The position numbers and the translations under genes were made by a program. 64,000 nt of DNA from Tahibacter soli (lineage in GTDB: Bacteria; Pseudomonadota; Gammaproteobacteria; Xanthomonadales; Rhodanobacteraceae). Location of the stretch: contig NZ_JAOVZO020000018.1 of assembly GCF_025717065.2 (NCBI RefSeq), forward strand, positions 744,001 through 808,000, written 5' to 3'. Positions 48,601-64,000 of the stretch are shown here, one piece after another (the first letter of the stretch is position 1; each line of letters begins with the position of its first letter). The notes below the pieces were generated by a model, which ran no database searches, was not told the DNA's origin, and worked only from the letters and a program-made list of their open reading frames with translations.

Positions 48601-48667
48601 TCTGATCGACACGTACCAGTCGCCGCGCGCGGTGCGCTTCACCGCCCGCTACGACTTCTCGCTGTAA
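45617..48667 (+). CDS. Oar-like TonB-dependent receptor with carboxypeptidase-regulatory domain
   Basis: 1016-residue outer-membrane protein. Signal peptide about 1-33 (ends VHAQK); then a carboxypeptidase-regulatory-like beta domain (about 35-105: GEIFGHAAANSTITIES, DGNGRFSFNQLPTGKY). Next come a TonB box-like ETIEVTGA, a plug (GYYINGFDVTNIRNF, FGRSLGGVINIVTKRGTNEF) and a large barrel ending RYDFSL. This Oar/RagA-like architecture is abundant in Lysobacterales and Myxococcota and is linked to import of larger substrates or vesicle/adhesion roles. No SusD or substrate-processing partner is adjacent, so the ligand is unknown. Good GGGAG ribosome site. Confidence 0.93.
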   Translation: MHATTLRRRPARLQRSALVLALGAIIAGGQVHAQKATGEIFGHAAANSTITIESTETGLKREITADGNGRFSFNQLPTGKYKVSTGADARDVTVRVGTGSEVNFTTASQSLETIEVTGAAINPIDVSSVESATVFTAEQIAALPVARDVSSVALLAPGTVKGDGGLGRTGSTLASFGGASVAENGYYINGFDVTNIRNFTSFATLPFEAIGQQQVKTGGYGAEFGRSLGGVINIVTKRGTNEFKAGAAVYWEPRSLQEHAPNVRSIQDPEKYYKFNDADEDSKLSYDVYGSGPIVRDRLFFFAMAEGRDNVRENFLEDSSNRIQDTKPHGLIKLDWNISDNHIVEFTGITNRDYEEYRNYTNNLDGDGSNGIEDPFSSRHNVGTPGFTRKYGGEVYIGKYTGYLTDNLTISAQYGELEALNGVQTPRNLPGAECPAVYDSRANPANTDYLGCWDVNQFTISDPNAPDERDRRRAGRVDLDWKLGSHSVRAGYDGEKFDSTNVGATMSGGKYYRYYRTPAAGARVNGVNLPGNTEYVRVRDYQTQSGSYEVENTAFYVEDNWQITDRFLAYLGVRSESFDNKNGAGVSFAKSDNLYAPRVGFSWDLEGDASTKIFGSGGRYYIPIASNTNIRASAAELYVHRFYRFTGIDPVTAAPVALGDQIGAPVVLSPGIVPVPDTVTAGNLKPMYQDEIILGFQHAFDNGWTGGVRGVWRKVKNGMDDYCYHGAFERWAQDNGHDDFDSSTVPECVILNPGNDAEFALDLDGTGDLTRVTIPARYFDIPKYRRKYNAFEFFWERPWDGKWSVQGSYTWAHSRGNAEGYVNSSIEQGDAGITQDFDFPSFMDGADGKLPNNRRHTIKVFGVAQIAEEWRVSTNWLIQSGRPVNCLGFVPESARDFDGSGTYTSPSSFYCVDHIEIGADGTPHPVHVLRPRGSVGETPWVTSIDVSLAWIPKFANNNLTLKVDVFNVFNAKRALQYNETGDLNRGSPVPNGDFRLIDTYQSPRAVRFTARYDFSL

Positions 48668-48726
48668 TTCCAAGAACCGGCGCCGCGAGCTCGCCGCGGC
48701 GCCGCAAAAAGCACGCTCCAACATTG

Positions 48727-48757
48727 AGCCGCCGGCGGGAATGCCGGCGGCTTTTTT
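48727..48757 (+). terminator. intrinsic terminator of the Oar-like receptor gene
   Basis: Ten-bp stem AGCCGCCGGC/GCCGGCGGCT, six-base loop, followed by TTTTT. Confidence 0.93.
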
Positions 48758-48833
48758 ACGGACTCGCGCCGGCGTCTCATGCGACGAGACGGCAACCGCT
48801 ACACTGCGCGCCAGATTCCGCACGTGCCGCGCA

Positions 48834-50285
48834 ATGTCCCTGACCGAAATCCTGCTGATCGTCGCCGTCGTCCTGCTCGTGGCGCTGCTCGCGCTCGTGA
48901 TCGTGCTCGTCGCGCGCAGCCGCGGCGACGCGTTCGCCGACCTGCGCAACCTCCTGACCGGGATGCGCGACGACGGCGAGCGGCTCGAACGCGGTCTGCG
49001 CGACGAAGCGCGCGCCGCACGCGGCGAACAGGCCGGCAGCATGGAACAGCTGCGCGACAGCGTGCAGGGCCAGTTCGCGCAGCTCGCGCAGGCGCAGCAC
49101 GTGCGCATCGAAGGCTTCGGCCAGCGCCTGGACCAGCTTACGCAGCGCACCGACCTGCGTCTGGATACGCTGCGCCAGGCGCTGCTCGACGACGCTCGCA
49201 AGGCGCGCGACGAAGGCGCGCAGTCGCAGCTTGCGCTGCGCAGCCTCATCGAAGCGCGCCTGACCCAGCTCGGCGAAAACAGCCAGCAGCGCCTCGCCGA
49301 AGTGCGCGCGACGCTCGAGGCGAAGCTCAGGGAACTGCAGGTCGACAACGCAAAGCAGCTCGACGCGATGCGCGTCACCGTCGACGAAAAACTGCACGCG
49401 ACGCTCGAAACGCGGCTCGGCGAATCGTTCAAGCTCGTGTCCGAGCGGCTCGAACAGGTGCATCGCGGCCTCGGCGAAATGCAGGGCCTCGCGGCCGGCG
49501 TGGGCGACTTGAAGCGCGTGCTGTCGAACGTGCGATCGCGCGGCCTGCTCGGCGAAGTGCAGCTCGCGGCGTTGCTCGAACAATTGCTCACGTCCGACCA
49601 GTACGCGAGCAACGTCGCGACCGTACCGGGTTCGAACGAGCGCGTGGAGTTCGCGATCCGCCTGCCGGGCCGCGAGGCAAACGCGCCGGTGTGGCTGCCG
49701 ATCGACGCCAAGTTTCCGCGCGAGGATTACGAGCGGCTGCTCGACGCGCAGGAGCGCGCCGACGTCGAAGCGGCGGCCCTCGCCGGGCTCGCGCTCGAAC
49801 GCCGCATGCGCGAGGAAGCGCGCAGCATTCGCGACAAATACATTTCCGTACCCGCGACGACCGATTTCGCGATTCTGTTCGTGCCGACCGAAGGCCTGTT
49901 CGCCGAAGTGATCCGCCGGCCCGGACTGTTCGAATCGCTGCAGCGCGACTATCGCGTGGTCGTCACCGGCCCGACCACGCTCAGCGCGACGTTGAACAGC
50001 TTGCAGATGGGCTTTCGCACGCTCGCGATCGAAAAGCGTTCGAGCGAGGTGTGGCTGCTGCTCGGCGCGGTCAAGACCGAGTTCGGCAAGTTCGGCACGG
50101 TGCTCGAAAAAACGCGCAACCAGCTCGACAGCGTCCGCAACAGCATCGACGCCGCCGGCGTGCGCACGCGCGCGATCGAGCGCAAACTGCGCAGCGTCGA
50201 ATCGCTGTCGGGCGATCAGAGCCAGTCGCTGCTCGGCGACGCGGCGCTGCCCGACGCCGACGAGACCGACAACGGGATCGGCTAA
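48834..50285 (+). CDS. rmuC: DNA recombination protein RmuC
   Basis: 483 residues: N-terminal membrane anchor (about 5-27), a long coiled coil (about 30-220, rich in Gln/Glu/Arg heptads) and the C-terminal nuclease-like RmuC domain with LGEVQLAALLEQ, LPIDAKFPREDY and ILFVPTEGLFAE (PD-(D/E)xK-like core). Proposed to limit inversions at short repeats. The ATG at 48834 gives a proper anchor; the frame runs 31 codons further upstream without support. Confidence 0.96.
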   Translation: MSLTEILLIVAVVLLVALLALVIVLVARSRGDAFADLRNLLTGMRDDGERLERGLRDEARAARGEQAGSMEQLRDSVQGQFAQLAQAQHVRIEGFGQRLDQLTQRTDLRLDTLRQALLDDARKARDEGAQSQLALRSLIEARLTQLGENSQQRLAEVRATLEAKLRELQVDNAKQLDAMRVTVDEKLHATLETRLGESFKLVSERLEQVHRGLGEMQGLAAGVGDLKRVLSNVRSRGLLGEVQLAALLEQLLTSDQYASNVATVPGSNERVEFAIRLPGREANAPVWLPIDAKFPREDYERLLDAQERADVEAAALAGLALERRMREEARSIRDKYISVPATTDFAILFVPTEGLFAEVIRRPGLFESLQRDYRVVVTGPTTLSATLNSLQMGFRTLAIEKRSSEVWLLLGAVKTEFGKFGTVLEKTRNQLDSVRNSIDAAGVRTRAIERKLRSVESLSGDQSQSLLGDAALPDADETDNGIG

Positions 50286-50398
50286 GCTCAGGCCGTCGCA
50301 CGACGGATGAACGGCAGCGATATCGAGCGGCGGCGACGCAACCCTGGCGTCGCGCGTCCCTCGTTCGATTCGCGCCACCGAACCCCTGGAGCCGCACC

Positions 50399-51898
50399 AT
50401 GCGCAACCTTCTGAGCCTCGCGATAACCGCCGCCATGACCACGACCGCCGCACTCGCCGCCGAAACACCGAATTACTCGCTGACGATCTACAGCTCGGCC
50501 GCGCCGGGTTCGATCAGCACCGACACGCTCGTCAACTACGGCGGCGCGCTGCCGGGCTACGCGCTCGTGCGCGACGGCCGCAAGATGGACCTCAAGGCCG
50601 GCAACGGCGTGCTGCGCTTCACCGACGTCGCCAAGCGCATCGACCCGACCACCGTCGCGTTCGAATCGGTGACCGATCCCGCCGGTACGCGTGTGGTCGA
50701 ACAGAACTACCAGTTCGACCTCGTCAACCGCGACAAGCTGCTCGAACGCTACGTCGGCGAGACGATCACGGTCGAACAGCAGCGCGGCGACGCGCTCGAA
50801 CGCATGGTCGGCAAGCTGCTCTCGTCGGCCGACGGATCGCTGATCCTCGAACGTCCGAACGGCGAAGTCGTCACGATCGGCAGCTATTCGAACGTGCTGT
50901 TCCCGAGCCTGCCGGGCGGCCTGATCACGCGGCCGACGCTCGTGTGGCTCGTCAACGCCAAGCAGGGCGGGCAGCACGATACGCGGGTGAGCTACCAGAC
51001 GCAGGGCATGACGTGGTGGACCGACTACAACGTCACGCTGCGCGAGGCGGGCGACGCCTGCGACATGGATCTCTCGGCGTGGGTCACGATCGTGAACCAG
51101 TCCGGCGGCAGCTATCCCGAGGCGCAGTTGAAGCTCGTCGCCGGCGAGGTCAACCGCGCGCCGGCCGCGCCGCCGCCGCGGGCGAAGATGATGCGCAACG
51201 AACTCGCCGCGGCGTCGGTCGGGCAGGACGCGGGTTTCCAGGAATCGCAATTGTTCGAATATCACTTGTACACACTGGGCCGCAAGAGCGACCTGCCGGA
51301 CAATTCGACCAAGCAGCTCGAGCTCTTTCCGACCGCCTCGCGCGTGGGTTGCAAGAAGCAGCTCGTATTCACCGCGGCGCCGCAGCCGTGGACGTACTGG
51401 GCGCAGCCGATCGCCGACCAGGGCTACGGCGCGACGACGCAGGGCACGGTCGGCGCGTTCCTCGAATTCGACAACAAGGAAGCGAACAAGCTCGGCATGC
51501 CGATGCCGGCCGGCCGCGTGCGCGTGAACCAGGCGTCGGCCGACGGCAGCCTCGAATTCATCGGCGAGGACGTGATCAAGCACACGCCGCGCAACGAAAC
51601 GCTGCGCATCAAGCTCGGCAATGCGTTCGACGTCGTCGGCGAGCGCAAGCAGACGAATTTCAACATCGACACGTCGGCCAAGACGATCGTCGAGACGTTC
51701 GAGATCAGCGTGCGCAACCGCAAGAAGACCGCGGCGAAGGTCGTCGTGCGCGAATACCTGTATCGCTGGAGCCAGTGGAACGTCACGGCCAAGAGCCACG
51801 AATTCGTCAAGCGCGACGCGCAGACGATCGACTTCCCGGTCGAGATCCCGGCCGACGGCGAGGCGAAGGTGACCTACAGCGTGCGCTACACCTGGTAA
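50399..51898 (+). CDS. exported DUF4139-domain protein
   Basis: 499 residues. Signal peptide about 1-20 (ends LAAET). The rest is beta-rich, with paired Cys (DACDMD around 220 and VGCKKQL around 315). The arrangement, an early RDGRKMDLKAGNG block, a middle TWWTDYNVTL and a final KTAAKVVVREYLYRW, matches DUF4139 proteins, which are secreted and of unknown function. Monocistronic, with a 15-bp hairpin just after it. Confidence 0.85.
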   Translation: MRNLLSLAITAAMTTTAALAAETPNYSLTIYSSAAPGSISTDTLVNYGGALPGYALVRDGRKMDLKAGNGVLRFTDVAKRIDPTTVAFESVTDPAGTRVVEQNYQFDLVNRDKLLERYVGETITVEQQRGDALERMVGKLLSSADGSLILERPNGEVVTIGSYSNVLFPSLPGGLITRPTLVWLVNAKQGGQHDTRVSYQTQGMTWWTDYNVTLREAGDACDMDLSAWVTIVNQSGGSYPEAQLKLVAGEVNRAPAAPPPRAKMMRNELAAASVGQDAGFQESQLFEYHLYTLGRKSDLPDNSTKQLELFPTASRVGCKKQLVFTAAPQPWTYWAQPIADQGYGATTQGTVGAFLEFDNKEANKLGMPMPAGRVRVNQASADGSLEFIGEDVIKHTPRNETLRIKLGNAFDVVGERKQTNFNIDTSAKTIVETFEISVRNRKKTAAKVVVREYLYRWSQWNVTAKSHEFVKRDAQTIDFPVEIPADGEAKVTYSVRYTW

Positions 51899-51904
51899 GC
51901 CCGA

Positions 51905-51939
51905 GCGCCGGCCGGACCCCGCGCGGGTCCGGCCGGCGC
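51905..51939. terminator. 15-bp GC hairpin between convergent genes, no T tract
   Basis: Stem GCGCCGGCCGGACCC and its exact complement with loop CGCGC. It ends 7 bases before the stop of the convergent gene, so both transcripts run into it. Confidence 0.65.
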
Positions 51940-51946
51940 CGCGCCG

Positions 51947-53665
51947 CTAGCGGCGGCGCAATTCGAACGCATCGACGACAGGCCCGTTGCCGACGACCGT
52001 CAGCGCCGACCACCCGGCGTAGTTCGTCACCGGCGTGTAGCCCGCCGGCAGCGTCGTCGCCGGCAGCATCACGTAGCCGTTGACGCGCAGCGCGACGGTG
52101 CGCGCGGTCTTGTCGTAGAACAGTTCCACGCGATTGAGCGCGCCGGGCTTGATGCGCGCGTCGAAGCGCTCGCCGCCGGTCAGGCTGATCGCGGTGCCGT
52201 TCGCGAGCACGTTGTAGCGTCCGGAATTCTTGAGGTAAATCCACAACTGTCCGTCGCCGAACCAGCCGTGGTTCGCGAAGCCCGACAGGCCGATCGCGGT
52301 CCATTCCGAATCCTGCGGATTGATGTCGGCCGTCACGGTCAGCGGCCGGTTGTTCGCGCCGACGACCGGTACCACGGCCATCGGATTCGTTCCGGCCGCG
52401 CCGCCCGCGTAGCCGCCGCCGTAGGGGTCGCCGACGCCGGGCCCGCGCGCGCCGGCGAACCGGATGCTCGCGTTCGACGCGATCCAGCTGACGCCGCCGA
52501 CCTCGGCGGCCCGGTTGTTGAGCGTCGCCCCGGGCAGCGCCGTGCCCGCGAACGACATCGTGAACGCATCGGCCGCCAGCAGCGTATCGGGCACCGCACA
52601 GACACCGGCGCTGAAGTTCGCGTGCGTGTCGCGCACGATCTGCGGCATTTCGGCGAACGACTCGAACTCGTAGTCGGCGGGACTCGCGCCGTAGGTGAAC
52701 ACCAGCGCGCCGCTGACGAGCGGCTCGTTGCGCAGCCAGTTGCACCAGTTCGCCGCGAGCCGCGCGTGGTCGCGCCCGAGCAGCCAGTGCAGCGGCGCGC
52801 CGTGGCGCTGGTTGATGTAGTGGCCGTCGACGACGAAGTCGATCGTCTGCCACGCGCGCAGCTTCGACTTGAGCACGGTGTAGTTGCGCGAGAACGTCGA
52901 GTTCGGCCACGCCATGCTGCGCGCGTTCAGCGGATCGTTGTCGTTCGCCGGATTCATCACGCCGTACGACCAGGTGATGATGCGATCGATGTTGGTCGCG
53001 AACTTGCCGATGTGGTTGACGCCGTTGGCGATGTGTTCCTCCGGCCGCGCATCGACCGAGATCTCGTAGCCGGCCGCCACTTTCGCGGTCGGCAGCGCGG
53101 CCTTGACCGCGGCGGCGGCGGCGTTGATGTCGGCCGCCGGCACGCAGCCGGATTCCGGATTGACCGAAATGAACTCGAAGTTCGCGGCCGTGACGCCGGC
53201 GGGCAGGCGATTCTTGAAGTCGGTCATGCGCGCCTGATGGTTCGCGCGCAGGTCGGCGCGAAACGTGACGTTCGGGTTCGGCATGCCGAACGCGGCCTGG
53301 TAGCCGAGGCACGGCACGCCGCCCGGATAGGAGTTCCCCTGGAAGAACACGTTGAACAGGTCGATCGCGACCTTGCGCTGGCCGGTGCGCGCCTGCGCCT
53401 CGTTGAGGAGGTCGTTCATCGCCATCGCGAGCAGCTGGTAGCCGTGGAACGGCTGGCCCGGAGCGGCGTCGGGTCCGTCGGTCGCGACGAGCAGCGTCGG
53501 CACGATGCCGTAGCGGTTCATCTCGGGCAGGAAGCTGTCGTAGACGGCCTTGTTCAGACCCGCGTCGTAACGCAGGTTGGCGATCATGCCGGTGGTCGAG
53601 TAGTACTGGACGGCCGACGCCGGCAGCGACGCTGCCGCGGCGGCCAGGGCGAACACGATACGCAT
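51947..53665 (-). CDS. large secreted protein, function unknown
   Basis: 572 residues. Signal peptide about 1-18 (ending PASAVQ). The N-terminal ~370 residues look alpha/beta, with buried aromatic strands (FHGYQLLAMAMND, IDFVVDGHYINQRHG), as in glycoside-hydrolase barrels, but no catalytic pair can be named. Three or more Cys (VPCLGY, SGCVPA, NWCNW, GVCAVP) suggest disulfides. The C-terminal ~190 residues form a beta sandwich with IYLKNSGRYNVLANG and VELFYDKTARTVALRVNGYV, resembling LamG/concanavalin-type binding modules. I do not recognise the whole. Preceded on its strand by a 229-base gap. Confidence 0.82.
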   Translation of the reverse strand: MRIVFALAAAAASLPASAVQYYSTTGMIANLRYDAGLNKAVYDSFLPEMNRYGIVPTLLVATDGPDAAPGQPFHGYQLLAMAMNDLLNEAQARTGQRKVAIDLFNVFFQGNSYPGGVPCLGYQAAFGMPNPNVTFRADLRANHQARMTDFKNRLPAGVTAANFEFISVNPESGCVPAADINAAAAAVKAALPTAKVAAGYEISVDARPEEHIANGVNHIGKFATNIDRIITWSYGVMNPANDNDPLNARSMAWPNSTFSRNYTVLKSKLRAWQTIDFVVDGHYINQRHGAPLHWLLGRDHARLAANWCNWLRNEPLVSGALVFTYGASPADYEFESFAEMPQIVRDTHANFSAGVCAVPDTLLAADAFTMSFAGTALPGATLNNRAAEVGGVSWIASNASIRFAGARGPGVGDPYGGGYAGGAAGTNPMAVVPVVGANNRPLTVTADINPQDSEWTAIGLSGFANHGWFGDGQLWIYLKNSGRYNVLANGTAISLTGGERFDARIKPGALNRVELFYDKTARTVALRVNGYVMLPATTLPAGYTPVTNYAGWSALTVVGNGPVVDAFELRRR

Positions 53666-53856
53666 GGTCCTTCTCCGGTCGGGTCGCGATGTTGCGACGC
53701 GCCGACGCTAGGCATCTGCGTTGCGTGCCTTGTGACGAATCCTGTTGTTTACGAATCCACTATGCGACGCCGCCGTTCGTGCAACGACGGACGCGCCCGG
53801 GCGGGCATGGACCGGCGCGGGCGGGCGCGCACGGGTCGATAGCGACGCGTCGGTGA

Positions 53857-53888
53857 CGCGCTCCCCGCGCCGTTGCGCGGGGAGCGCG
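53857..53888 (-). terminator. 14-bp GC hairpin after the thioredoxin-like gene
   Basis: Stem CGCGCTCCCCGCGC with its complement and loop CGTT, 6 bases after the stop at 53895. No T tract. Confidence 0.6.
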
Positions 53889-53894
53889 CGGCGG

Positions 53895-54509
53895 TCACGT
53901 GCCGTATTTCACCGAGCAGCCGTACGGCTGCGACGTCGACACGCTGACGGCCTTGCCGCCCTTGAGTTCGGTCAGCGCCTGGCGCACGTACTGCGTCGCC
54001 TTCGGGATGTCGGCCTGGTCGGCGCTCTGGATCGAGTCGATGCCGCCCATGTAGCGCAGCTTGCCTTCGCCGTCGATGACGTACATATGCGGCGTCGTCT
54101 TGGCGCCGTATTCGTGGCCGACCTTGCCGTCCGGATCGAGCAGGTACGCGGTCTGGCCGCCGCCGCTCGTCTTGATCACGGCGTTGGCGCCGGCGCCGTC
54201 GACGGCGCCCTGCTTGCCCGGCGCGCCGGAATTGATCGTCAGCCACACCACGCCTTCGCCGGTGGCTTCCTTCTGCTGCGCCTGCATGTTGCCGGAGCCG
54301 TAGTGCTTCTTCACGAACGGGCATTCGGCGTTCGTCCATTCGAGGACGACGGTCTTGCCCTTGAACTCGGCGAGCGAGCGCGCCTTGCCGTTGCTGTCGG
54401 TCAGCGTGAAGCCCGGGGCGGCGTCGCCGACGACGGCTTTCGCGAAAACGGGGCCGCTGGCGACGAGCGACAGCGCGGCGGTGGCGAGGATGGTGCGCAG
54501 GGTGATCAT
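53895..54509 (-). CDS. exported thioredoxin-like (redoxin) protein
   Basis: 204 residues. Signal peptide about 1-23. The domain starts as in AhpC/TSA-Redoxin proteins (VGDAAPGFTLTDSNGK) and has a single active-site Cys63 in ECPFVKKHY. The usual CxxC second Cys is Val, as in the 'redoxin with CPxV' group found beside DsbD-like genes. A late Cys (QPYGCSV) could be a resolving residue. The ATG at 54509 follows AGGAG and overlaps the dsbD stop by 4 bases, so it is probably reduced by the DsbD-type protein encoded upstream. Confidence 0.92.
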   Translation of the reverse strand: MITLRTILATAALSLVASGPVFAKAVVGDAAPGFTLTDSNGKARSLAEFKGKTVVLEWTNAECPFVKKHYGSGNMQAQQKEATGEGVVWLTINSGAPGKQGAVDGAGANAVIKTSGGGQTAYLLDPDGKVGHEYGAKTTPHMYVIDGEGKLRYMGGIDSIQSADQADIPKATQYVRQALTELKGGKAVSVSTSQPYGCSVKYGT

Positions 54510-56637
54510 GGCGAACTCCTGGTGGCGGGGGTGGCAGGCCCCGCCGCCGCACGCGCGAGCGCGTCGGCGACGAGGCCGGGGGTAAGAATCTGCGGCAGCA
54601 CTTCGGGCGCGCCGCCGCCGCGCGGATACAGCACGTACAGCGGCACGCCGCTGCGTCCGAAGCCGGCGAGATAGGTCGTGATCGCGGCGTCCTGGTTCGT
54701 CCAGTCGCCCTTGAGATAGCGCGTGCCGGTGTTCCTGAGCGCTTCGCGGAACGTGTCCGACGACAGCGCGACGCGCTCGTTCGCCAGGCACGTGATGCAC
54801 CAGGCGGCGGTCATGTTCACCAGCACCGGCGCACCTTCCTGGCGCAGCGCGTCGAGTTTGCCGGCGTCCCAGGGCTGCCATGCCGCGTCGGCGCCGGCAT
54901 GCGTCGCCGCCTGCGGCTTCAAGTCCGCGAGCGGCACGACCGCGACGAGCACGAGCGCGGCGATCGCCAGGCGCCGCAGCACGCGCGGCGCCGCGAACTG
55001 CGCGCGGCCGTGCCACACGAGCGCGCCGACGAGCACGACCGCGCCGGCGAGCACGAGCGCCGAAGCGTCCGCGCCGACCTGGCGCATCAGCACCCAGAAC
55101 AGCCACACGGCGGTGAGATACAGTGGAAACGCGAGCACCTGCTTCAACGTTTCCATCCACGCGCCGGGCCGCGGCAGCCAGCGCGCGAGCAGCGGCACGA
55201 ACCCGAGCGCGACGATCGGCAGCGCAAGACCCGCGCCGAGCGCCGCGAACACCGCGAGCGCGGCCCACGCGGGCTGCGTCAGCGCATAGCCGAGCGCCGG
55301 TCCCATGAACGGCGCCGTGCAAGGACTGGCGACCAAGCACGCGAGCACGCCGGTGAAGAACGCCGCGCGCACGCCGCCGCCTTCGGTCAGCCGCTGTCCG
55401 GTGCCGCTCCAGCGCGCGCCGACGACGTAGACGCCGGACAGGCTCAGGCCCATCGCGAGCATCAGGTACATGAGCGCCGCGACGAGCGTCGGCGACTGCA
55501 GCTGAAAACCCCAGCCGAGACTTTGACCGGCACCGCGCAGCGCGAGCAGCACGCCGGCGAGCGCGACGAAACCGGCCACGGTGCCGGCGAGGTACGCCAG
55601 GCCGCCGCGCCGCGCCGCACCCGGCGCATGCGCGCCCTCGGCGAGGCCGAGCGCCTTGAGCGACAGCACCGGGAACACGCACGGCATCAGGTTCAGGAGC
55701 ACGCCGCCGAGCAGTGCGAACGCGAGCGCGAACGCCAGACCGCCTTCGTGCGGCGCGACGGGTGCGGGGGCGCCGAGGCCGCGGCGGCTGTCTGTTCGAC
55801 CTCGCGCCACGCCACGCGCGTACGCCAGGCGCGCACGCCCTCGGCCCGCGAGACGACGACGAGGTCGAGCGTCTGCGGCATTTTCGACTTGTCGAAATAT
55901 TCGCTGCGCGCCGCGGTCGCGACCAGCGCGTCGCCGTCGCGCGCAAACGTCATCGCGGTGTTCGCCAGTACCTGCTCGGGCACGGCAAACGCGTCGAGCG
56001 CCTCGAGCGGCGGCAGGTTCGCGCCGGTCAGGCGGATCTCGACCGCGTCGCCGTGCGCGGTCGCCGCGCCGGTCCAGTCGACCGCCTGCGGCTGCGCCGC
56101 GTGCGCCGCCGCGAACAGCGCCTGCCAGCGCGGATCGGGCGCAGGCGCCGCGGCGATCGGCAGGTCGAGCGACAACGTCGCCTTGCCCGGAATGCATTCT
56201 TCTTCGCAGACGAGCCAGTTCGCATCGAGCGCGAACGACGCGCGTTCGCCGGGCTGCGCGCCGGCCGGCACGGTGACGCGCACCGGCAGCAGCATTTCGC
56301 CGTCGTAGCCGAAATTGTGCAATTCGCCGACGCGCAGGCGCTGCGGCGCCGGCCACGCGATCTCGTCGACCGCATAGCCCGGCGGTACGCGCCACGCAAG
56401 CTTCGTCGGCAGGCCCGAATCGCCCGGGTTGATCCAGTACGTGTGCCAGTGCGGATCGTGCTTCAGGCGCAGGCCGAGCCACGCGGAACCGCCCGGCGCG
56501 AGCGCCGTCGACTCGGCGACGAGCTCGACGGTCAGATGTTCGGCGTCGACCGGTGCGGCGTTCCCCGCCGAGAACGGCAGCAGCGACAGCAGCGCCGCCA
56601 TCGCCCGTTTCCACCCGCGTTTGCGCGTCTCGCCCAT
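54506..56637 (-). pseudogene. dsbD: DsbD-type protein-disulfide reductase, frameshifted
   Basis: Moves electrons from cytoplasmic thioredoxin to periplasmic thiols. The N-terminal part (56637 down to ~55770) has a signal peptide and a DsbD-alpha/ScsB-like domain with CEEEC. The remainder (~55770-54506, another frame) encodes the membrane domain with its Cys pair (LMPCVFP and ASPCTAPFMG), eight helices and a C-terminal thioredoxin domain with WCITC. The frame changes in a C5 run at 55766-55770 (minus strand). One extra C joins both parts into an intact ~710-residue protein, so this is probably an assembly error rather than a dead gene. Co-translated with the redoxin downstream. Confidence 0.88.
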
Positions 56638-56842
56638 GCCGATGCCCGTTGCGCCGAAACCGTAGTCTCGGAGAATGACCGTTATCCGTGCGTTTCGACA
56701 CCGCGCGGTTCGGCGAAGCGAAGCGATTGTGCGCCGGACCGTGACGGCCGGGAACGGCCCCGGAAAGGCCTGTCCCGCGCGTCAATCAGGGCGGGACATG
56801 ACCGTTTGCCGCGAGTAGACTGCGCGCGCCTCGTCCAACGGA
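56638..56842. other. intergenic region, no feature seen
   Basis: 205-base spacer between divergent dsbD and the MFS gene. No strong promoter or repeat recognised on either strand. Confidence 0.5.
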
Positions 56843-58105
56843 ATGCCCGTGGAATCGCCAGCCGCAGCTACCCCCGCCCGCCGCGCCGCCTTCATTTTCA
56901 TCTTCGTCACCGTCGCGCTCGACATCCTCGCGTTCGGCATCGTCATTCCGGTGCTGCCGCGCCTGATCCGCGAGATGTCGGGCGGCGATTTCGTGTCGGC
57001 GGCCGACTGGGTCGGCATCATCAGCACGGTCTACGCGGTCGTGCAGTTCTTCTCGACGCCGGTGCTCGGCGCGCTGTCCGACCGCTACGGTCGGCGGCCC
57101 GTGATTCTGCTGTCGAACCTCGGTCTCGGTCTCGATTTCATCCTGCTCGCGGTCGTCAATTCGCTGCCGTGGTTCATCGTCGCGCGCATCGTTTCGGGCA
57201 TGACCGCGGCGAGCTTCAGCTGCGCCAACGCGTACATCGCCGACGTCACGCCGGCGGACCGGCGCGCCGAAACCTTCGGCAAGCTCGGCGCCGCGTTCGG
57301 CATCGGCTTCGTCGTCGGCCCCGCGCTCGGCGGCATGCTCGGCGAAATCGACATCCGCCTGCCGTTCTGGGTGGCCGCCGGTCTCGCGCTCGCGAATTTC
57401 TGCTACGGCTGGTTCGTGCTGCCCGAATCGCTGCCGCCGGAGCGCCGCACGCCGACGCTCGACTGGTCGCACGTCAAGCCGTTCGGCGGGCTGCAGCGTC
57501 TGCGCCGCTATCCGCAGGTGTTCGGCCTCGCGGTCGTCGTGTTCCTGTCGAGCCTTGCGCACTATGTGCTCAATACCACGTTTGTACTTTATGCGGACTA
57601 TCGCTACGACTGGGGTCCGCGCGCGGTCGGCTACACGCTGGGACTCGTCGGCGTGTGCAACGGCATCGTGCAGGCGCTGCTCGTCGGCAAGTTCGTGCGG
57701 CGCTTCGGCGAGCGCCGCATGCTGTACGCGGGACTCGCGTTCGGCGCGATCGGCTTCGCCTGGCAGGGACTCGCGCCGACCGGCTGGCTGTCGCTGATCG
57801 CGATCCCGATGCTCGCGCTGTGGGGCGTCGCCAATCCCGCGGTGCAGGCGCTGATGACGCGGCAGGTCGATCCGCACGAGCAGGGCCGCCTGCAAGGTGC
57901 GGTCGCGGGCCTCGCGAGTCTCGCCGGCATTTTCGGCCCGGGCCTGTATACGCAGACGTTCGCGTGGGGCATCTCGCCGAACAATCCGTGGCACGTGCCG
58001 GGCGCGGCGTTCCTGCTCGCGGCGCTGCTGCTCGTCGTCGCGATCGTCATGACGATGCGTGCATTGGCGCATGCGACGGTGCCCGCCACGTCGACGGAAT
58101 CGTAG
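56843..58105 (+). CDS. MFS transporter, TetA-like drug/H+ antiporter group
   Basis: 420 residues with twelve predicted helices. Motif A-like [12 protein letters not shown] after helix 2, the helix-5 motif C-like [12 protein letters not shown] (DHA1 antiporter signature) and a mid-protein loop place it in the TCR/TetA branch. True tetracycline specificity cannot be inferred; related chromosomal genes export varied compounds. The ATG at 56843 lacks a strong ribosome-binding site. No TetR-type regulator is adjacent. Confidence 0.93.
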
Positions 58106-58129
58106 CCAACAATTTTTTTACAAACCCCC

Positions 58130-58158
58130 TTGAAACCGTCGAACGATGCGAGTAACTT
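58130..58158 (+). promoter_or_regulatory. possible promoter of the 58.2-58.4 kb transcript
   Basis: TTGAAA, 17 bases, TAACTT, followed by a GC-rich discriminator; 25 bases after the MFS stop. Confidence 0.4.
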
Positions 58159-58164
58159 GCGCAC

Positions 58165-58414
58165 GCTTCGCGCGGCATTCCGCGCACTCTTGAGTTTTAT
58201 ACGAATGAGACAGCCGATTCTCCATCGCAATCCGAACGCGCTGCGCAGCGACAGCTGGCGCGGATCGCGTGCGCTTGCGCGCGGCGAACGACTGTATCGC
58301 GGACCGATTCCGCACCCGGCCTGACCTCTTGAACAGAGGAAGGTCGGTTCAACACCGACCTTCCGAGGCAACGCGAACGCCCCCGGAAGGCCATGCCCCG
58401 GGGGCGTTTTTTTT
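58165..58414 (+). ncRNA. candidate structured small RNA ending at a terminator
   Basis: About 250 bases with an early hairpin (GCGCGG/CCGCGC, 58170-58185), a very strong 11-bp hairpin GGAAGGTCGGT/ACCGACCTTCC (58338-58364) and the terminator at 58377. A 39-codon Arg-rich frame (58205-58324, ATG without a good ribosome-binding site) lies inside; whether it is translated is unclear. No similarity to a known RNA family recognised. Confidence 0.4.
58377..58414 (+). terminator. strong intrinsic terminator
   Basis: Ten-bp stem ACGCCCCCGG/CCGGGGGCGT with an 11-base loop, then TTTTTTT. It isolates the upstream transcript from the sigma-54-like unit that follows. Confidence 0.9.
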
Positions 58415-58533
58415 GGCGTTCGCAGGTTGGATACACACGGAATTCGGCGCCGTTCCGCGGCGCCAAAACGCGCATTGTGGTCACTCATCGCAACGAATCA
58501 CAGCGGCATGGCTTTGCTGCCATCCGGTGCGCG

Positions 58534-58549
58534 CGGCGCTGCCGTTGCG
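58534..58549 (+). promoter_or_regulatory. candidate sigma-54 (-24/-12) promoter
   Basis: CGGCGC, 5 bases, TTGCG. GG and GC are exactly 10 bases apart, as RpoN requires, against the consensus TGGCAC-N5-TTGCA. Transcription would start near 58560, just before the tRNA-like elements. An inverted repeat GGCGCC-N7-GGCGCC at 58446-58464, about 100 bases upstream of that start, is a possible enhancer site. Confidence 0.45.
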
Positions 58550-58586
58550 TATGCCGTGGTTCCTGCGGGCCATGACGCTCCGGTAA

Positions 58587-58616
58587 CCCCGCAAGGGGCA
58601 CAGGTTCGAATCCTGT
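58587..58616 (+). ncRNA. isolated tRNA T-arm with GNRA hairpin
   Basis: CCCC-GCAA-GGGG hairpin (58587-58598) followed by a perfect T-arm: stem ACAGG/CCTGT around TTCGAAT (58600-58616). This is what the 3' half of a long-variable-arm tRNA looks like, but no matching 5' half is found upstream, and it ends 2 bases before the next tRNA-like element. Confidence 0.6.
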
Positions 58617-58618
58617 CT

Positions 58619-58694
58619 TTGAAGCTAGCTCATTCGGGTAGAGCAACGAACTAGTCATTCGTGGGTAGCGGGTTCGAGTCCCGCGCTTCCTCCA
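58619..58694 (+). ncRNA. tRNA-like RNA with defective acceptor tip and encoded CCA
   Basis: 76 bases folding as a cloverleaf. D-stem GCTC/GAGC; anticodon stem ACGAA/TTCGT with 7-base loop CTAGTCA; 5-base variable loop; T-arm GCGGG-TTCGAGT-CCCGC; 3' CCA. The acceptor pairs at positions 3-7 (GAAGC/GCTTC), but positions 1 and 2 face T and C (T-T and T-C mismatches). The nominal anticodon AGT (Thr) with C at position 37 is abnormal. A working tRNA is therefore unlikely; a tRNA mimic or decaying tRNA fits better. Confidence 0.7.
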
Positions 58695-58720
58695 GAGCAA
58701 CACCCGGGACGCAAGTCCCA

Positions 58721-58931
58721 GGAAACATCCCGCGCGGCGGCGTTGAATGGTACGCATTGCATTCAACGCCGGCCGCAGCGGTCGCGCCGCCGGCCTCGCG
58801 CCGGCGCCGCGCACGAGCGGCAGCGCTCGGCGATCGCGTTCGGCGTGAAGCACTGCGCCGCACGATCGCAACGCCTGCCGCGACTGCGCCGCGCTCGCGC
58901 CGGGTTCGCGTCGCGCCGTCGGGATGTTTCC
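58721..58931 (+). ncRNA. candidate 211-nt structured RNA element
   Basis: Closed by a 12-bp perfect helix GGAAACATCCCG (58721-58732) / CGGGATGTTTCC (58920-58931). Inside: a 12-bp helix CGGCGTTGAATG/CATTCAACGCCG (58738-58771), hairpins at 58788-58806 (7 bp) and 58814-58829 (6 bp), a two-part stem GCGATCG..CGGCG / CGCCG..CGATCGC (58830-58869), and CGCGAC/GTCGCG (58879-58915). A GCAA-loop hairpin GGGAC/GTCCC (58706-58719) precedes it. The A/T-containing long helices are unlikely to be chance even at this GC content. Not a known family to me. Confidence 0.5.
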
Positions 58932-59049
58932 GCCACTCATTCTTTCGCCCGCGTCGTCGACGCGGGCTCGCAAGCCCCGCGCGGCGTCGGCAACACGCGC
59001 GCAAGGTTCTCGCCACCAGCGTTGCCGCAACACGACTAGGATTATAAAA

Positions 59050-60183
59050 ATGGCTGTTTTATGGAAAACGGTCGTGATCGGCGACAACGAGCGCGGCCTG
59101 GAATTTCGCGACAAGCGCTTCGAACGCGTGCTGACGCCGGGCGTGTACCGCATCGCGCGCGGCTTCGCGCAGCGCGAGGTGCGCGTGTTCGATCTCGGTT
59201 CGATCGAATACGCGAGCAAGGACGTCGACACGCTGATCGAACGTCTCGGCACGCGTCTGGAGGAACACTTCGTGCTCGCCGACGTCGGCGTGGACGAGGC
59301 CGGTCTCGTCATGCACAACGGCAAGCTCGTCGACGTGCTCGCGCCGGGTACGCGCAAGCTGTACTGGCGCCGCGCGAACGGCATCGCGGTCGAACGCGTC
59401 GCTCTGGGCGAAGGCCTGGAAGTGCCGGTCGCGGTCGCCAAGCGTCTGCGTCAACTCGGCTCGCTCGCGAAGGTCGCGCTCGGCATCGACGTGCCGGCCG
59501 AAAGCGTCGGTCTCGTGTTCGTCGACGGCAAGCTTGCACGCACGTTGCCGCCCGGCGCGTACGCGTTCTGGAACTTCGGCCGCAACGTCGGCGCGGAAGT
59601 CGTCGAGCTGCGCGTGCAGAGCGTCGAGGTGTCGGGCCAGGAGCTGTTGACGCGCGACAAGGTGACGTTGCGCGTGAACCTCGCCGCGAGTTTCCGCGTC
59701 GCCGACGCGGTGACGATGCGTACGCGCGTGGCGAAGTTCACCGACTTCTTCTACCGCGAACTGCAGTTCGGCCTGCGCAAGGCCGTCGCGGCGAAGACGC
59801 TGGACGAACTCCTCGGCGACAAGGCGTCGCTCGACGGCGACATCTTCGCGTACGTGCACGAGCGCATCGGCAGCCTCGGCGTCGAAGTGCTCGGCGTCGG
59901 CGTGAAAGACGTGATCCTGCCGGGCGAGATGCGCGAGATCCTGAACAGCGTGGTGCAGGCCGAAAAGGCCGCGCAGGCGAACGTGATCCGCCGGCGCGAA
60001 GAGGCGAACGCGACGCGTTCGGCGCTCAACACCGCCAAGCTGATCGAGGAAAGCCCGACGCTGATGCGTCTGAAGGAGCTGGAGACCTTGGAAAAGGTCA
60101 CCGAGAAGATCGACAAGCTGACCGTGTTCGGCGGCCTGGACGGTGTGCTCAACCAGCTCGTCAAGCTCAAGGCAGGCGCGTAA
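59050..60183 (+). CDS. slipin family protein (SPFH domain)
   Basis: 377 residues. An N-terminal ~150-residue duplicated beta-domain precedes the SPFH/band-7 core (about 155-310: LLTRDKVTLRVNLAASFRV, DIFAYVHERIGSLGVEVLGVGVKDVILP). The characteristic helical tail follows (AEKAAQANVIRRREEANATRS, given as two parts AEKAAQAN and IRRREEANATRS). No clear transmembrane start, so membrane attachment, if any, is peripheral. This slipin subtype is one I associate with RtcR/sigma-54-controlled RNA-repair operons in other proteobacteria. The ATG follows AGGATTATAAAA. Ends at the terminator at 60215. Confidence 0.88.
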   Translation: MAVLWKTVVIGDNERGLEFRDKRFERVLTPGVYRIARGFAQREVRVFDLGSIEYASKDVDTLIERLGTRLEEHFVLADVGVDEAGLVMHNGKLVDVLAPGTRKLYWRRANGIAVERVALGEGLEVPVAVAKRLRQLGSLAKVALGIDVPAESVGLVFVDGKLARTLPPGAYAFWNFGRNVGAEVVELRVQSVEVSGQELLTRDKVTLRVNLAASFRVADAVTMRTRVAKFTDFFYRELQFGLRKAVAAKTLDELLGDKASLDGDIFAYVHERIGSLGVEVLGVGVKDVILPGEMREILNSVVQAEKAAQANVIRRREEANATRSALNTAKLIEESPTLMRLKELETLEKVTEKIDKLTVFGGLDGVLNQLVKLKAGA

Positions 60184-60214
60184 GGGAGCGGGACGACCGC
60201 TCCGGCGCGAAGAG

Positions 60215-60247
60215 AAAGCGGCCGCCGTAAGGCGGCCGCTTTTCTTT
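60215..60247. terminator. intrinsic terminator between slipin and kinase genes
   Basis: Twelve-bp stem AAAGCGGCCGCC/GGCGGCCGCTTT, loop GTAA, then CTTT; the A-rich left flank lets it work for the convergent kinase gene too. Confidence 0.93.
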
Positions 60248-60274
60248 GGCGAGCCTGATGACATCCGGCAGGTG

Positions 60275-62698
60275 TCAGGCGTTCGGGATCGAATCGTCCC
60301 GCTTCGCCCATTCCTTCAACGTATCGAACGCCTCTGCCAGCGCATCGACTTGCGCCTTCATTTCCTTCTCGCCGCCCCGCGCGCAACGTTCGAGCGCGTC
60401 GGCCGCGTCGCCCAGCGCCAGCGCTCCGACGAGCCGCGCCGCCCCCTTGATGCGATGCGCGTCGCGCGCGACCGCCTCGGCGTCGCCGCCGCCGTACGCC
60501 GCGACGACCGCCGCGACGTCGCGCTCGGTCGACTCGACGAAATCGCGCAGCAGATTCGCGACGACACCGGCGTCGCCGCCGGCGATGTCCGTGAGCGCGG
60601 CGAGATTGACCGGTGCCTGCTCGCCCGAGGCGAGCGACGGCACCGATGCGGCGAGAGCGCTCTCTTGTGCCGGAAACGCCACGTGCGGCAGCCATTGCCG
60701 CAGCTTGCGCGCCAGCTGCACGATGCTGACCGGCTTGCCGAGGAAATCGTCCATGCCGGCCGCAACGCAGCGCTCGGCTTCGCCCTTCGTCACGTTCGCG
60801 GTCAGCGCGACGATCGGCGTGCGCGCCAGCCCCTCGCGCCGCTCGTGCGCGCGCACGGCCGCGGTCAGCGCATAGCCGTCCATGCGCGGCATGTGGATGT
60901 CGGCGAGCACCAGCGCGAAACGTCCGCTTTTCCACACTTCCAGCGCTTCGGCGCCGTCGGCCGCGCCGATCGACGCGTAGCCCGCGCGTTCGAGCTGGCG
61001 CGCCACCACTTCGCGATTCGTCGGATGATCGTCGACCACCAGCACGAGGCTGCGTTCGCGCTCGGCCTCGGCGACCGTCGGCGCCGCGCGCTGCGGCAGG
61101 TCGCCGGCGGCGCCGTTGCGGCGCGGCGCGATCGCTTCGGCCGTCGCTTTCGGCAACGGCAGCACGAGCGTGACCGTCGTGCCTTCGCCGAGCTGGCTGC
61201 GCAGGCCCAGGTCGCCGCCGAGCAGGCGCGCGAGCCGCAGGCAGATCGCAAGGCCGAGACCCGTGCCGCCGTAAGCGCGCGCGGTGCCGCCGTCGGCCTG
61301 CGCGAACGGCGTGAACAGACGGTCCTGGTGGGCCTGGTCGATGCCGATGCCCGTGTCCTGCACGCGCAGCGCAAGGGTCTGCGACTGATCGTCCTGCATC
61401 AGCATTTCGAGTTCGATCGCAACGCCGCCCTTGTGCGTGAACTTGAGCGCGTTCGATACGAGGTTGGACAGGATCTGCCGCAGTCGCAGCGGATCGACGC
61501 GGTGCGCGGGCGCCACGTTCGCGTCGACCGTCAGCGTCAGGTACAGCCCGCGCGACGACGCCACGCCGAGAAAGTTGTTGACGGTCGCCTCGACCAGCCG
61601 GCGCAGGTCGGTCGGTTCGGGCGCGAGGTCGAGCCGGTCGGCCTCGATTTTAGAAAAATCCAGAATGTCGCCGATGATCTGCAGGAGCGCCTGCGTCGAG
61701 GTTTCGATGACGGTGACGCAGCGGCGCTGCTCGGCGTCGAGGTCGGTGTGCGACAGCAGTTCGAGCATGCCGGTGACGCCGATCATCGGCGTGCGGATTT
61801 CGTGGCTCATCGCGGCGAGAAACGCGCTCTTGGCGCGGTTCGCGTCCTGCGCGTGCGCTTCGCTTTCGCGCAGCTCGACCTCGTTGCGCGCGAGCGTGTC
61901 GCGCATGCTGAGGAACGCCTCGGCGACGACGCCGAGCTCGCCGCGCGGCAGGCGGCCGACCGGCGCGTCGTAGTCGCCGCGCTGCGTCGCGCGCGCGAGC
62001 TTCACGAGTTTTTCGACGCCGCGGTAGATGTGGCGCAGGATCTGCCGGCCGACCACGAGCACGATGAGAAGCGTTGCGACCGACAGTCCGATGCGCCACC
62101 AGTTCACACGCCACGCGCGGGCGACGTCGGCCGCGAGATTTTCGTTCGCGGTAACCATCTTGAGATCGGACAGGAAGGCCAGGCGCATCGTGACCGGATC
62201 GATCGCCGGATACAGCTCGGTGTCGGCGAACTTGCCGAGCGCGGGCAGGTCGCGGCTGACCAGAATCGCGCGCAGCTTCGCCGCGGCGCGGTCGGCGCTT
62301 TCGCGATGGCGCGCGATCTCGTCGACGAGGCTCTTCTGCTCGGGCGTCAGGCGCGTGCCGTTGAGCGCCTCCCAATGCCGCTGCACGCGCGTTGCCGCGC
62401 GATCGAGCACTTCGACGCCCTGCTCCCAGCCCATGAGGTTGTTGCGCACGCGAAACGTCGTGTCGACGACGTCGAAGCCGTAGGCATCGGAAATGCCCTT
62501 GACGTAGTTGAGGCCGCCGAGCGAGTCGTCGCGCACGCCTTGCATCGTGCGCACGGTCGCCTGCTGGCTCAGCGTGTCGAGCACGAGCACGGTCGCGCCG
62601 GTCGCCAGCATCAGTCCGAACAGCGACAGCAGCTGCTGGCGTATCGACAGGCGCGACGGGCGCCAGCCGAACGACGGTTCGCGCGGCGGCGCGTCCAC
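60275..62698 (-). CDS. hybrid sensor histidine kinase with receiver and HPt domains
   Basis: 807 residues from a GTG at 62698 that shares one base with the stop of the preceding gene (TAGTG). Order: transmembrane helix ~20-40, periplasmic helical sensor (~45-190), second transmembrane helix, HAMP-like linker, HisKA with [10 protein letters not shown] (phospho-His ~296), HATPase with NLVSNALKF and DTGIGI and [10 protein letters not shown] receiver follows ([12 protein letters not shown], Asp ~597), then an HPt with DAHRIKGAA (His ~748). A complete phosphorelay in one chain; probable output is the Rec-EAL protein encoded just upstream. Signal unknown. Confidence 0.95.
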
Positions 62699-63909
62699 TA
62701 GGCGCCGACGATGCCGGCAGGCGGCCGCCAGTGCTGAACCTGGTCGATCAGCGCGTGGCCGGCGACGGCCGCGCCGATCAGAAAGCCCTGCGCGTGCTGG
62801 CAGCCGAGCTCGGCCAGCATCTGCCAGTCTTCGACCGTCTCGACGCCTTCGGCGATCGTGCCGAGATCGAGCTTGCGCGCCAGCTCCAGGCTCGTTTCGA
62901 CGACCGCGCGCTTGCGCGGCTGCCGCGCCGAGCCCGTGACGAAGCCCTGGTCGATCTTCAGTTCGGTAAAAGGAATCTGCGACAGCTGCGCGAGCGACGA
63001 ATAGCCGGTGCCGAAGTCGTCGATCGCGAGCCCGAAACCTTTGAGGCGCAGCCGTGCCAGCACGTTGAGCGCGTTCGCCGCCTCGCCCATGACCGAGCTT
63101 TCGGTGACCTCGAACACCACGTCGCGCGGTTTCACGCCCGCCTGCTGCACGGTCTGCTGGTAGCGGTCGGCGGTGTCCACCTTGGCGAGGTTCAACATCG
63201 AGACGTTGACCGACAACCGCAATTCCAGGCCCGACGCGGCCCAGCGCGTGCGCCAGCGGCACGCCTTGGCGAGCATGCGGTCGGTGAACGCGTCGATGAG
63301 CCCTTCGCGTTCGAGCAGGTGGACGAACTGCGCCGGCATGACCACGCCGTCGTCGCGTATCCAGCGCGCGAGCGCCTCGACGCCGACGACATGGCCGCTC
63401 GCGATCGCGACCTGCGGCTGGAACCACGGTTCGAACTCGTCGGCATCGAGCGCATCGACCAGCGCGCGGCGGTCGAGATCGAGCGGCGCGTCGTCGCGGT
63501 CTTCTTCGTGTTCCTGATGAAAATGCAGCAGCACGTCGTGCAGCTTTTGCGCCGTCAGCGGCTTTTCGACCGTGCCGAGCACGCGCAGGCCCGACGCGCG
63601 CGCCATCGTCTGCACCGTGTTGAGCAGCGACGGATCCAGGGCCGACAGTACGACGATCGCGCGCGCCAGACGACGGCCGGCAACGTGACCGATCAGCTCG
63701 ATGCCGTCCATTTCCGGCAGGTCGAGATCGACGACGACGACGTCGGGCGGTTCGGCCATCGCGCCGAGGCGGTCAAGCGCCTCGCGCCCGTTCGCGGCCT
63801 CGTACGCGCGCTCGACGCCGAGGCCCGCGAGCAGGCGCAACGCGATGCTGCGCTGGAAGCCGTGATCCTCGACCACCATCACCGACAGCGGGGCGAACCG
63901 TGACGTCAT
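62698..63909 (-). CDS. response regulator with EAL c-di-GMP phosphodiesterase
   Basis: 403 residues. Receiver domain with phospho-Asp61 in [12 protein letters not shown], then an EAL domain whose catalytic residues are all present: EAL in GVEALARW (~178), NVS, EVTES, the DDFGTGYSS loop, KIDQGF and EGVET. It should hydrolyse c-di-GMP when its state allows, controlling biofilm/motility behaviour. RocR-like layout. The ATG at 63909 follows GAGGGA. The 91 bases beyond it to the window end show nothing further. Confidence 0.95.
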
Positions 63910-64000
63910 AAGCGATCCCTCGGGCCCGCTCGCAATGTAACCCAGGATGGCCGCATGGACGTCGAGACGTCGATACAAAAAACGGCAGTGTGGTGCGTCC

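Follow-up and report, generated by a model that had tools for sequence, protein, structure and literature searches.

A candidate translation-controlled attenuator precedes a tRNA-like RNA and an RNA-repair-type slipin gene in Tahibacter soli

Described slipin and RNA-repair loci

An association of SPFH/Band-7 proteins with RtcB and tRNA-like RNA was reportedly described by Burroughs and Aravind in 2016. The locus considered here lies in a window of 64,000 nucleotides from the genome of Tahibacter soli (assembly GCF_025717065.2, contig NZ_JAOVZO020000018.1, positions 744,001 to 808,000; coordinates below are those of the window), where a slipin gene of the SPFH/Band-7 type (59050..60183) follows a structured, tRNA-like RNA. 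It is like the reported module in its SPFH protein, in the adjoining tRNA-like RNA, and in the presence of rtcB beside most of its relatives, but rtcB is not adjacent to it; for the present locus a pair of tRNA-like units, an upstream element E, a 3' domain, and an attenuator are described. The locus is probably best read as an RNA-repair-type slipin gene with tRNA-like structured RNA in its transcript, expressed through a translation-controlled transcription attenuator and not through RtcR and sigma-54. An earlier interpretation made from the letters alone (here, the sequence-only reading) had proposed an RNA-stress locus of the RtcR/sigma-54-regulated type; what it observed is partly confirmed below, and what it concluded is partly supported.

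Four other systems share parts of this arrangement. In P. aeruginosa PA14, a passage from the description of the SPFH gene PaFlo8 places it within an rtc locus together with rtcA, rtcB, and rtcR (PMC13086221). The position of an SPFH gene among rtc genes is alike, whereas rtcR belongs to the PA14 locus and is missing from that of the window; a passage search of that paper gave no hit for tRNA. The rsr-yrlBA-rtcBA operon, as presented in passages of Hughes et al. 2020 (PMC7790460), yields small RNAs with a tRNA-like domain and is switched through RtcR by broken tRNAs. RNA repair genes and small RNAs with a tRNA-like domain are common to both, but that operon has Ro60 and Y RNA where the present locus has an SPFH protein and the E/tRNA-like RNA, and RtcR and sigma-54 where the present locus has an attenuator; an operon of the rsr type exists separately in the T. 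soli genome. For the RtcB-like gene armZ, attenuation by stalled ribosomes has been proposed to act through the upstream leader peptide PA5471.1 (passages of PMC12057347). A leader peptide and a proposed transcriptional attenuation before an RtcB-like gene are features in common, whereas a slipin and tRNA-like RNA are unreported in those passages. In Anabaena, passages of two papers describe a slipin, rtcB, and a tRNA array (the trn operon) that are induced together under translational stress as part of the TrcR regulon (PMC10272220; PMC9938897). The joint rise of slipin, RtcB, and tRNA-type RNAs under such stress is alike; the Anabaena system differs in having a protein repressor, separate loci, and real tRNA genes. 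A search of the full-text literature, from which subscription papers were mostly absent, returned no report of the present attenuator, which looks new here.

The proposed attenuator and its leader

Relatives were collected from a scan of named genomes, in which the best 80 of 301 slipin relatives were kept (mostly Lysobacterales such as Xanthomonas, Lysobacter, Luteimonas, Pseudoxanthomonas, Dyella, Rhodanobacter, and Rudaea), and from 18 members of the window's own family; with the window, and after removal of 10 duplicates, these gave 89 distinct loci. From 5' to 3', the window locus consists of a promoter motif, a leader open reading frame (ORF), the attenuator, element E, two tRNA-like units, a hairpin, a 3' domain, and the slipin gene, all on the + strand. 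At the level of predicted sequence features, the succession of a sigma-70-type promoter, a leader ORF, four pairing segments with a terminator, structured RNA, and slipin is established.

Segment 1 of the attenuator (58316..58326) holds the leader stop codon and can pair with segment 2 (58338..58348), which can alternatively pair with segment 3 (58354..58365). Segment 3 can in turn pair, through CCTTCCG, with segment 4 (CGGAAGG, 58384..58390), which lies in the 5' arm and loop of an intrinsic terminator with a covarying helix and eight T (AACGCCCCCGG / CCGGGGGCGTT, 58376..58414). The features sought in an attenuator, namely, a leader stop inside the first pairing segment, mutually exclusive hairpins, and an intrinsic terminator, were all found. 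Of the 89 loci, 86 have a GC-rich terminator of this type 5' of the RNA (85 by scan and one more by pattern); the three loci without it have 231 to 783 nt of upstream sequence each. Covariation of helices 2:3 and 4:5 was computed on 55 sequences, in which these helices are 98.2% paired and show 29 double-change cells (5.6 after shuffling) and changes on both sides in 8 pairs (2.8 after shuffling). Covariation support is moderate for helix 1:2, in which 90.2% of positions are paired and double-change cells number 13 versus 4.7 in shuffles. In 84 of the 86 loci the 3:4 antiterminator is an unbroken stretch of 7 bp, and its versions (CCCGAGG/CCTCGGG, TCCGAGG/CCTCGGA, and CCTCCCG/CGGGAGG, beside CCTTCCG/CGGAAGG in the window) include several that are compensatory.

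Upstream of these segments lies a leader ORF of 39 codons (MRQPILHRNPNALRSDSWRGSRALARGERLYRGPIPHPA, stop TGA; 58205..58324), and all 86 loci have a leader ORF at the matching position, with a length of 27 to 49 codons and an end 42 to 57 nt 5' of the terminator. The stop codon is TGA in 74, TAA in 8, and TAG in 4 of them, and the distance from its end to segment 2 is 8 to 21 nt, with a median of 13, the value found in the window. A sigma-70-type promoter motif, TTGAAA-N17-TAACTT (58130..58158), is located 46 nt 5' of the leader ATG. The corresponding motif, TTG[CA]NN-N16-18-TANNNT, was found 5' of the leader in 84 of the 86 loci, where 2.4 would be expected from shuffles, and this conservation contradicts the promoter position given by the sequence-only reading.

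A ribosome that finishes the leader would cover segment 1, leaving segments 2 and 3 to pair and the terminator to form (the OFF state). An earlier stall, whether caused by the lack of an intact, charged tRNA or by another fault in elongation, would free segment 1 to pair with segment 2; segment 3 would then take up the terminator arm, letting RNA polymerase continue (the ON state) and transcribe the tRNA-like RNAs together with the slipin gene.

The leaders are unusually diverse in composition, with a mean of 16.86 different amino acids over the 86. Controls gave 13.53 for windows of natural proteins (standard deviation of the group mean, 0.26), 14.20 for N-terminal windows, 13.23 and 13.52 for the leader frames +1 and +2, 15.53 for reshuffles of the pooled residues (standard deviation, 0.13; highest of 300, 15.86), and 15.04 for nucleotide-shuffled ORFs (standard deviation, 0.16). 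The background proteins were the two longest ORFs of each locus, which may include false ORFs, and the composition-matched controls therefore weigh more. The picture is unchanged when the leaders are reduced to 59 clusters; diversity exceeds the leader's own shuffled mean in 75 of the 86, and 59 of the 86 have at least 17 different residues. Trp is missing from 75 leaders, Tyr from 40, Gln from 30, and Val from 28. Among more distant loci with a terminator, the leader of L174 has 19 different residues and those of L168, L173, and L175 have 18, at lengths of 47 to 65 codons, figures that stand without a control.

Diversity above the controls is what might be expected of a leader made as if to notice the loss of almost any tRNA. 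We tentatively consider a more specific proposal, possible but short of probable, in which a whole-alphabet attenuator would turn ON at such a loss, as an alternative to RtcR, and mimics with varied anticodons would bait anticodon nucleases on a scaffold of slipin and RtcB. It is also quite possible, if short of probable, that what the leader detects is not tRNA damage in particular but drugs that target the ribosome, or ribosome stalling in general, as proposed for PA5471.1-armZ, and that its diversity does no more than avoid bias. The logic of the attenuator answers any failure to reach the stop codon, and the armZ and Anabaena TrcR precedents, in the passages cited above, both concern translation inhibitors; a residue diversity greater than that of the composition-matched controls and the tRNA-like RNAs downstream argue, both indirectly, for tRNA.

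Several observations weigh against the attenuator as described. In the window itself the leader contains 15 different residues, with C, F, K, T, and V absent, a number that does not exceed the controls. Leader amino acid sequences are hardly conserved, with substitutions spread almost evenly over the three codon positions (368, 372, and 394) and only slightly more often synonymous in the leader frame than in the others. For helix 1:2, changes on both sides affect 3 pairs versus 2.2 in shuffles, a value reached by 169 of 500 shuffles. When segment 4 is swapped between types, the mean 3:4 run drops only from 6.97 to 6.30, and shuffles of individual loci also produce runs as long as those of 1:2 and 3:4 (mean fractions of 0.22 and 0.16, respectively, from a comparison that included misassigned hairpins in about a dozen loci). 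The first, looser promoter score barely exceeded shuffles, and a scan with a stricter sigma-70 consensus listed no promoter at 58130-58158. Free leader RNA of the window folds at equilibrium as 2:3 plus terminator, and because of this preference the ON state must be kinetic. The supply of RtcB in trans is an assumption.

Some of these points would suit another explanation, in which the terminator ends the transcript of an upstream major facilitator superfamily (MFS) gene, the short ORF is fortuitous, and an unrecognized promoter after 58415 drives transcription of the RNA and slipin. The poor conservation of the leader protein and the failure of the strict sigma-70 scan are in keeping with it, and it is also how the sequence-only reading took the terminator. 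We regard it as unlikely, since the terminator, the competing helices, the stop position, and the promoter motif recur before the RNA in 86 loci whose upstream genes differ.

The structured RNA and the slipin

The RNA that would be transcribed in the ON state begins with element E (58502..58558), a conserved pair of hairpins for which a model, R1, was built; its match in the T. soli genome has an E value of 4e-10. Within one of these hairpins sits CGGCGCTGCCGTTGCG (58534-58549), whose GG-N10-GC pattern the sequence-only reading had taken for a sigma-54-like promoter. The distance from GG to GC is 10 in 49 loci, 11 in 16, and 12 in 2, among the 67 of 89 loci with a readable pattern. A sigma-54 promoter at 58534 was rejected on these grounds, the element being a conserved RNA hairpin with a GG-GC spacing that varies among relatives.

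Two tRNA-like units follow, as the sequence-only reading had correctly recognized in calling a T-arm and then a cloverleaf. The first (58587..58616) is degenerate, with a GCAA-tetraloop arm, a T-arm (58600-58616), and no recognized D-arm. The second (58619..58693) is a cloverleaf with an anticodon-like AGT and an acceptor stem of about 5 bp, which ARAGORN calls tRNA-Thr(agt) and which scores 41.8 bits against the Rfam tRNA family (cut-off, 29). That family was the only Rfam match above the gathering score in the window; the Y RNA (YrlA) family was unmatched. A canonical anticodon arm is present in tRNA-like 1 in 19 of 83 loci and in tRNA-like 2 in 72 of 83, and in many of the noncanonical loci the arm of tRNA-like 1 is a tetraloop, as is the GCAA of the window. 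In the 72 loci with a canonical arm, tRNA-like 2 has U at position 33 in 57 and A at position 37 in 62, and positions 34 to 36 vary more than the rest of the loop (entropies of 1.96, 1.79, and 1.41 bits, versus 0.70 to 1.28 for the others), giving 27 anticodons.

That the units are tRNA genes, functional or in decay, placed 5' of the slipin by coincidence is highly improbable. ARAGORN and Rfam do call tRNA-like 2 a tRNA, but a functional tRNA has a seven-base-pair acceptor stem, whereas the stems here are about 5 bp in the alignment, and the arm of tRNA-like 1 is rarely canonical and often a tetraloop. Paired T-arms are fixed before the slipin in 83 of the 89 loci, and the paired units persist at 37 to 49% slipin identity. 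Among the six loci without a pair, L060 and L101 have 231 to 360 nt of upstream sequence, and L077, L096, L097, and L109 show one T-arm. The tRNA-like RNAs may occupy or sense tRNA-directed factors; as possible roles the sequence-only reading had named those of decoy, repair substrate, or sensor.

Further downstream, an alignment-conserved hairpin that folds as GGGAC-GCAA-GTCCC (58706..58719) is followed by a 3' structured domain (58721..58931) closed by a 12-bp helix (58721-58732 / 58920-58931). The closing helix has at least 9 bp in 68 of 83 loci, in several compensatory versions, versus 12 of 415 in a shuffled control. The fold of 58500-58935 has a z-score of -4.66 and beats all of 100 shuffles, which bears out the large structured element of the sequence-only reading.

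The slipin, likewise confirmed as a gene on the same strand as the RNA, has 377 amino acids and matches Pfam PF01145 with an E value of 3.7e-29; its identity to the 18 family relatives is 67 to 73%. An AlphaFold model (predicted local distance difference test [pLDDT], 78.5; predicted template modeling score, 0.56) has three five-stranded beta units, then the SPFH domain and long C-terminal helices. In a Foldseek search with this full model, stomatin and HflK/C ranked highest and the human vault ranked 22nd (E value, 2.4e-9). The N-terminal part modeled alone was weak (pLDDT, 64.8) and gave no structural match at an E value of 0.001; a particle like that of the major vault protein is suggestive only. 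There is no standout membrane segment, the highest 19-residue hydropathy being 1.43 where the usual threshold is 1.6. PADLOC gave no match, and so no known defense protein is recognized, and NCBIfam matches fall under their curated cut-offs (hflK, 37.7 of 159.4 bits). We infer a role in RNA repair, in which the slipin may oligomerize into a scaffold where tRNAs are repaired, with RtcB encoded at another place in the genome.

A simple scan lists a possible terminator 3' of the slipin (60215..60245), where T residues follow a stem at 60224-60236. By this measure the site is weak, as the scan found 3 sites and shuffles give 3.0. The sequence-only reading had treated this site and the terminator at 58377 as the borders of the locus; the latter is a terminator but forms part of the attenuator and is not a border. 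By eye, thioredoxin/DsbD-like neighbors in the window (53895-56785) look like those near a Rudaea slipin (L045:6539-8039), a hint of shared surroundings.

Distribution, RtcB, and two possible modes of control

The slipin was found in 19 of 117 genomes of the window's family, and model R1 matched exactly those 19, with one additional weak second match. The training loci of R1 include some of the 117, and for this reason the 98 R1-negative genomes are the independent part of that result. Within the window's own genus the slipin/RNA unit occurs in 1 of 8 genomes; none offers a clean empty site, as the flanks are not adjacent in the five other genomes that hold both (G014, G036, G065, G091, and G103). 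In the class, 21 of 369 genomes have the slipin at an E value of 1e-60 or better. The 20 loci besides the window have at least one T-arm within 1,500 nt upstream, and 17 have at least two (counts without a shuffle control); in L133 the T-arms are more than 1,300 nt from the slipin. In the phylum, the slipin reaches an E value of 1e-50 or better in 23 of 398 genomes, of which 8 belong to a different class, taken to be the Alphaproteobacteria. Eighteen phylum loci were read, and except for L165, which has only 88 nt upstream, all 17 have a T-arm within 700 nt and 16 have two, against a shuffle background of 0.03 per 700 nt. A phage or plasmid origin was rejected on a search of viral_contigs, where none of the 12 pattern matches is a relative; the plasmid and phage collections lay outside that search.

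The relatives place this locus among RNA-repair slipin loci, as the sequence-only reading had proposed. rtcB lies beside the slipin in 16 of the 18 family relatives, and in the scan of named genomes it starts less than 300 nt after the slipin in 62 of 80 loci and 300 to 1,100 nt after it in 11 (73 of 80 within 1.1 kb); it was not seen in 7 of 80, two of which have less than 200 nt of downstream sequence. In one locus (L057:5225-6040), slipin and rtcB are separated by a gene for a 271-amino-acid protein that matches nothing in Pfam, PADLOC, or NCBIfam, and a gap of similar size occurs in 11 of the 80. No rtcB was found near the window slipin, within 46001-64000. The sequence-only reading had noted that rtcA, rtcB, rsr, and rtcR are all absent from the window and spoke of a minimal or split version, which fits a slipin without an adjacent rtcB in a family where most relatives have one. 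The single RtcR match of the genome and its three to four RtcB matches do all lie outside the window, although the stretch read as free of rtcB covered 46001-64000 and not the whole window. As that reading had anticipated might be the case, the genes are present elsewhere: rtcR, rsr (TROVE and Ro60 vWA), a T-arm-bearing spacer RNA, rtcB, and rtcA lie on the same contig about 363 kb away, with a strong, divergent sigma-54 site (TTGGCACG-N4-TTGC) between rtcR and rsr. The spacer of this locus (L002:8895-15228; G000:C18, about 380-386 kb) has several T-arm-like RNAs, in which ARAGORN finds no tRNA. Apart from the rtcB of the rsr operon, the genome has two further RtcB-family places (G000:C1:84379-85575 and G000:C20:851198-852229).

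With RtcR encoded in the genome, and with such a site 5' of its rsr operon, RtcR could bind upstream of the slipin RNA and activate a sigma-54 promoter at 58534-58549. Support for control of this kind comes from 37 distant loci, examined with broader flanking sequence, where rtcR matches of less than 35% identity were dropped from the main list. rtcR neighbors the slipin in 9 of the 37 (51 to 65% identity), and 5 of these 9 pair it with a 10-of-11 sigma-54 match 5' of the RNA. For the window locus we consider it very unlikely: the element at 58534 is the conserved hairpin of variable spacing, a sigma-70-type motif lies further upstream in nearly all loci, and although RtcR occurs in 18 of the 117 family genomes, it co-occurs with the slipin in 4 of 19, leaving 15 of the 19 without an RtcR match. 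The regulated type assumed by the sequence-only reading holds for these distant loci and not for the window locus.

Eight other distant loci have a clear GC-rich terminator without rtcR nearby. The terminator of L168 was recognized by eye and not by script. These patterns suggest that slipin loci may have two alternative front ends, an attenuator or RtcR with sigma-54. Exceptions are L193, with a weak terminator and rtcR, and L186, with a 9-of-11 sigma-54 match and no rtcR nearby; L097 has a 33% rtcR match to the AAA+ part only. Many distant loci (L126, L135, L137, and similar ones) have tRNA-like units with neither a recognized attenuator nor rtcR nearby, and other controls may exist in them.

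If the attenuator proposed here is correct, RNA-repair operons would use two interchangeable damage sensors, RtcR, which binds broken tRNA ends, and an RNA switch that responds to the failure of translation, and some bacteria would gain a second way of sensing broken tRNAs. Among attenuators, one whose leader has a broad amino acid alphabet would be out of the ordinary. SPFH proteins that act in RNA repair would then have a concrete candidate partner in the conserved tRNA-mimic RNA.

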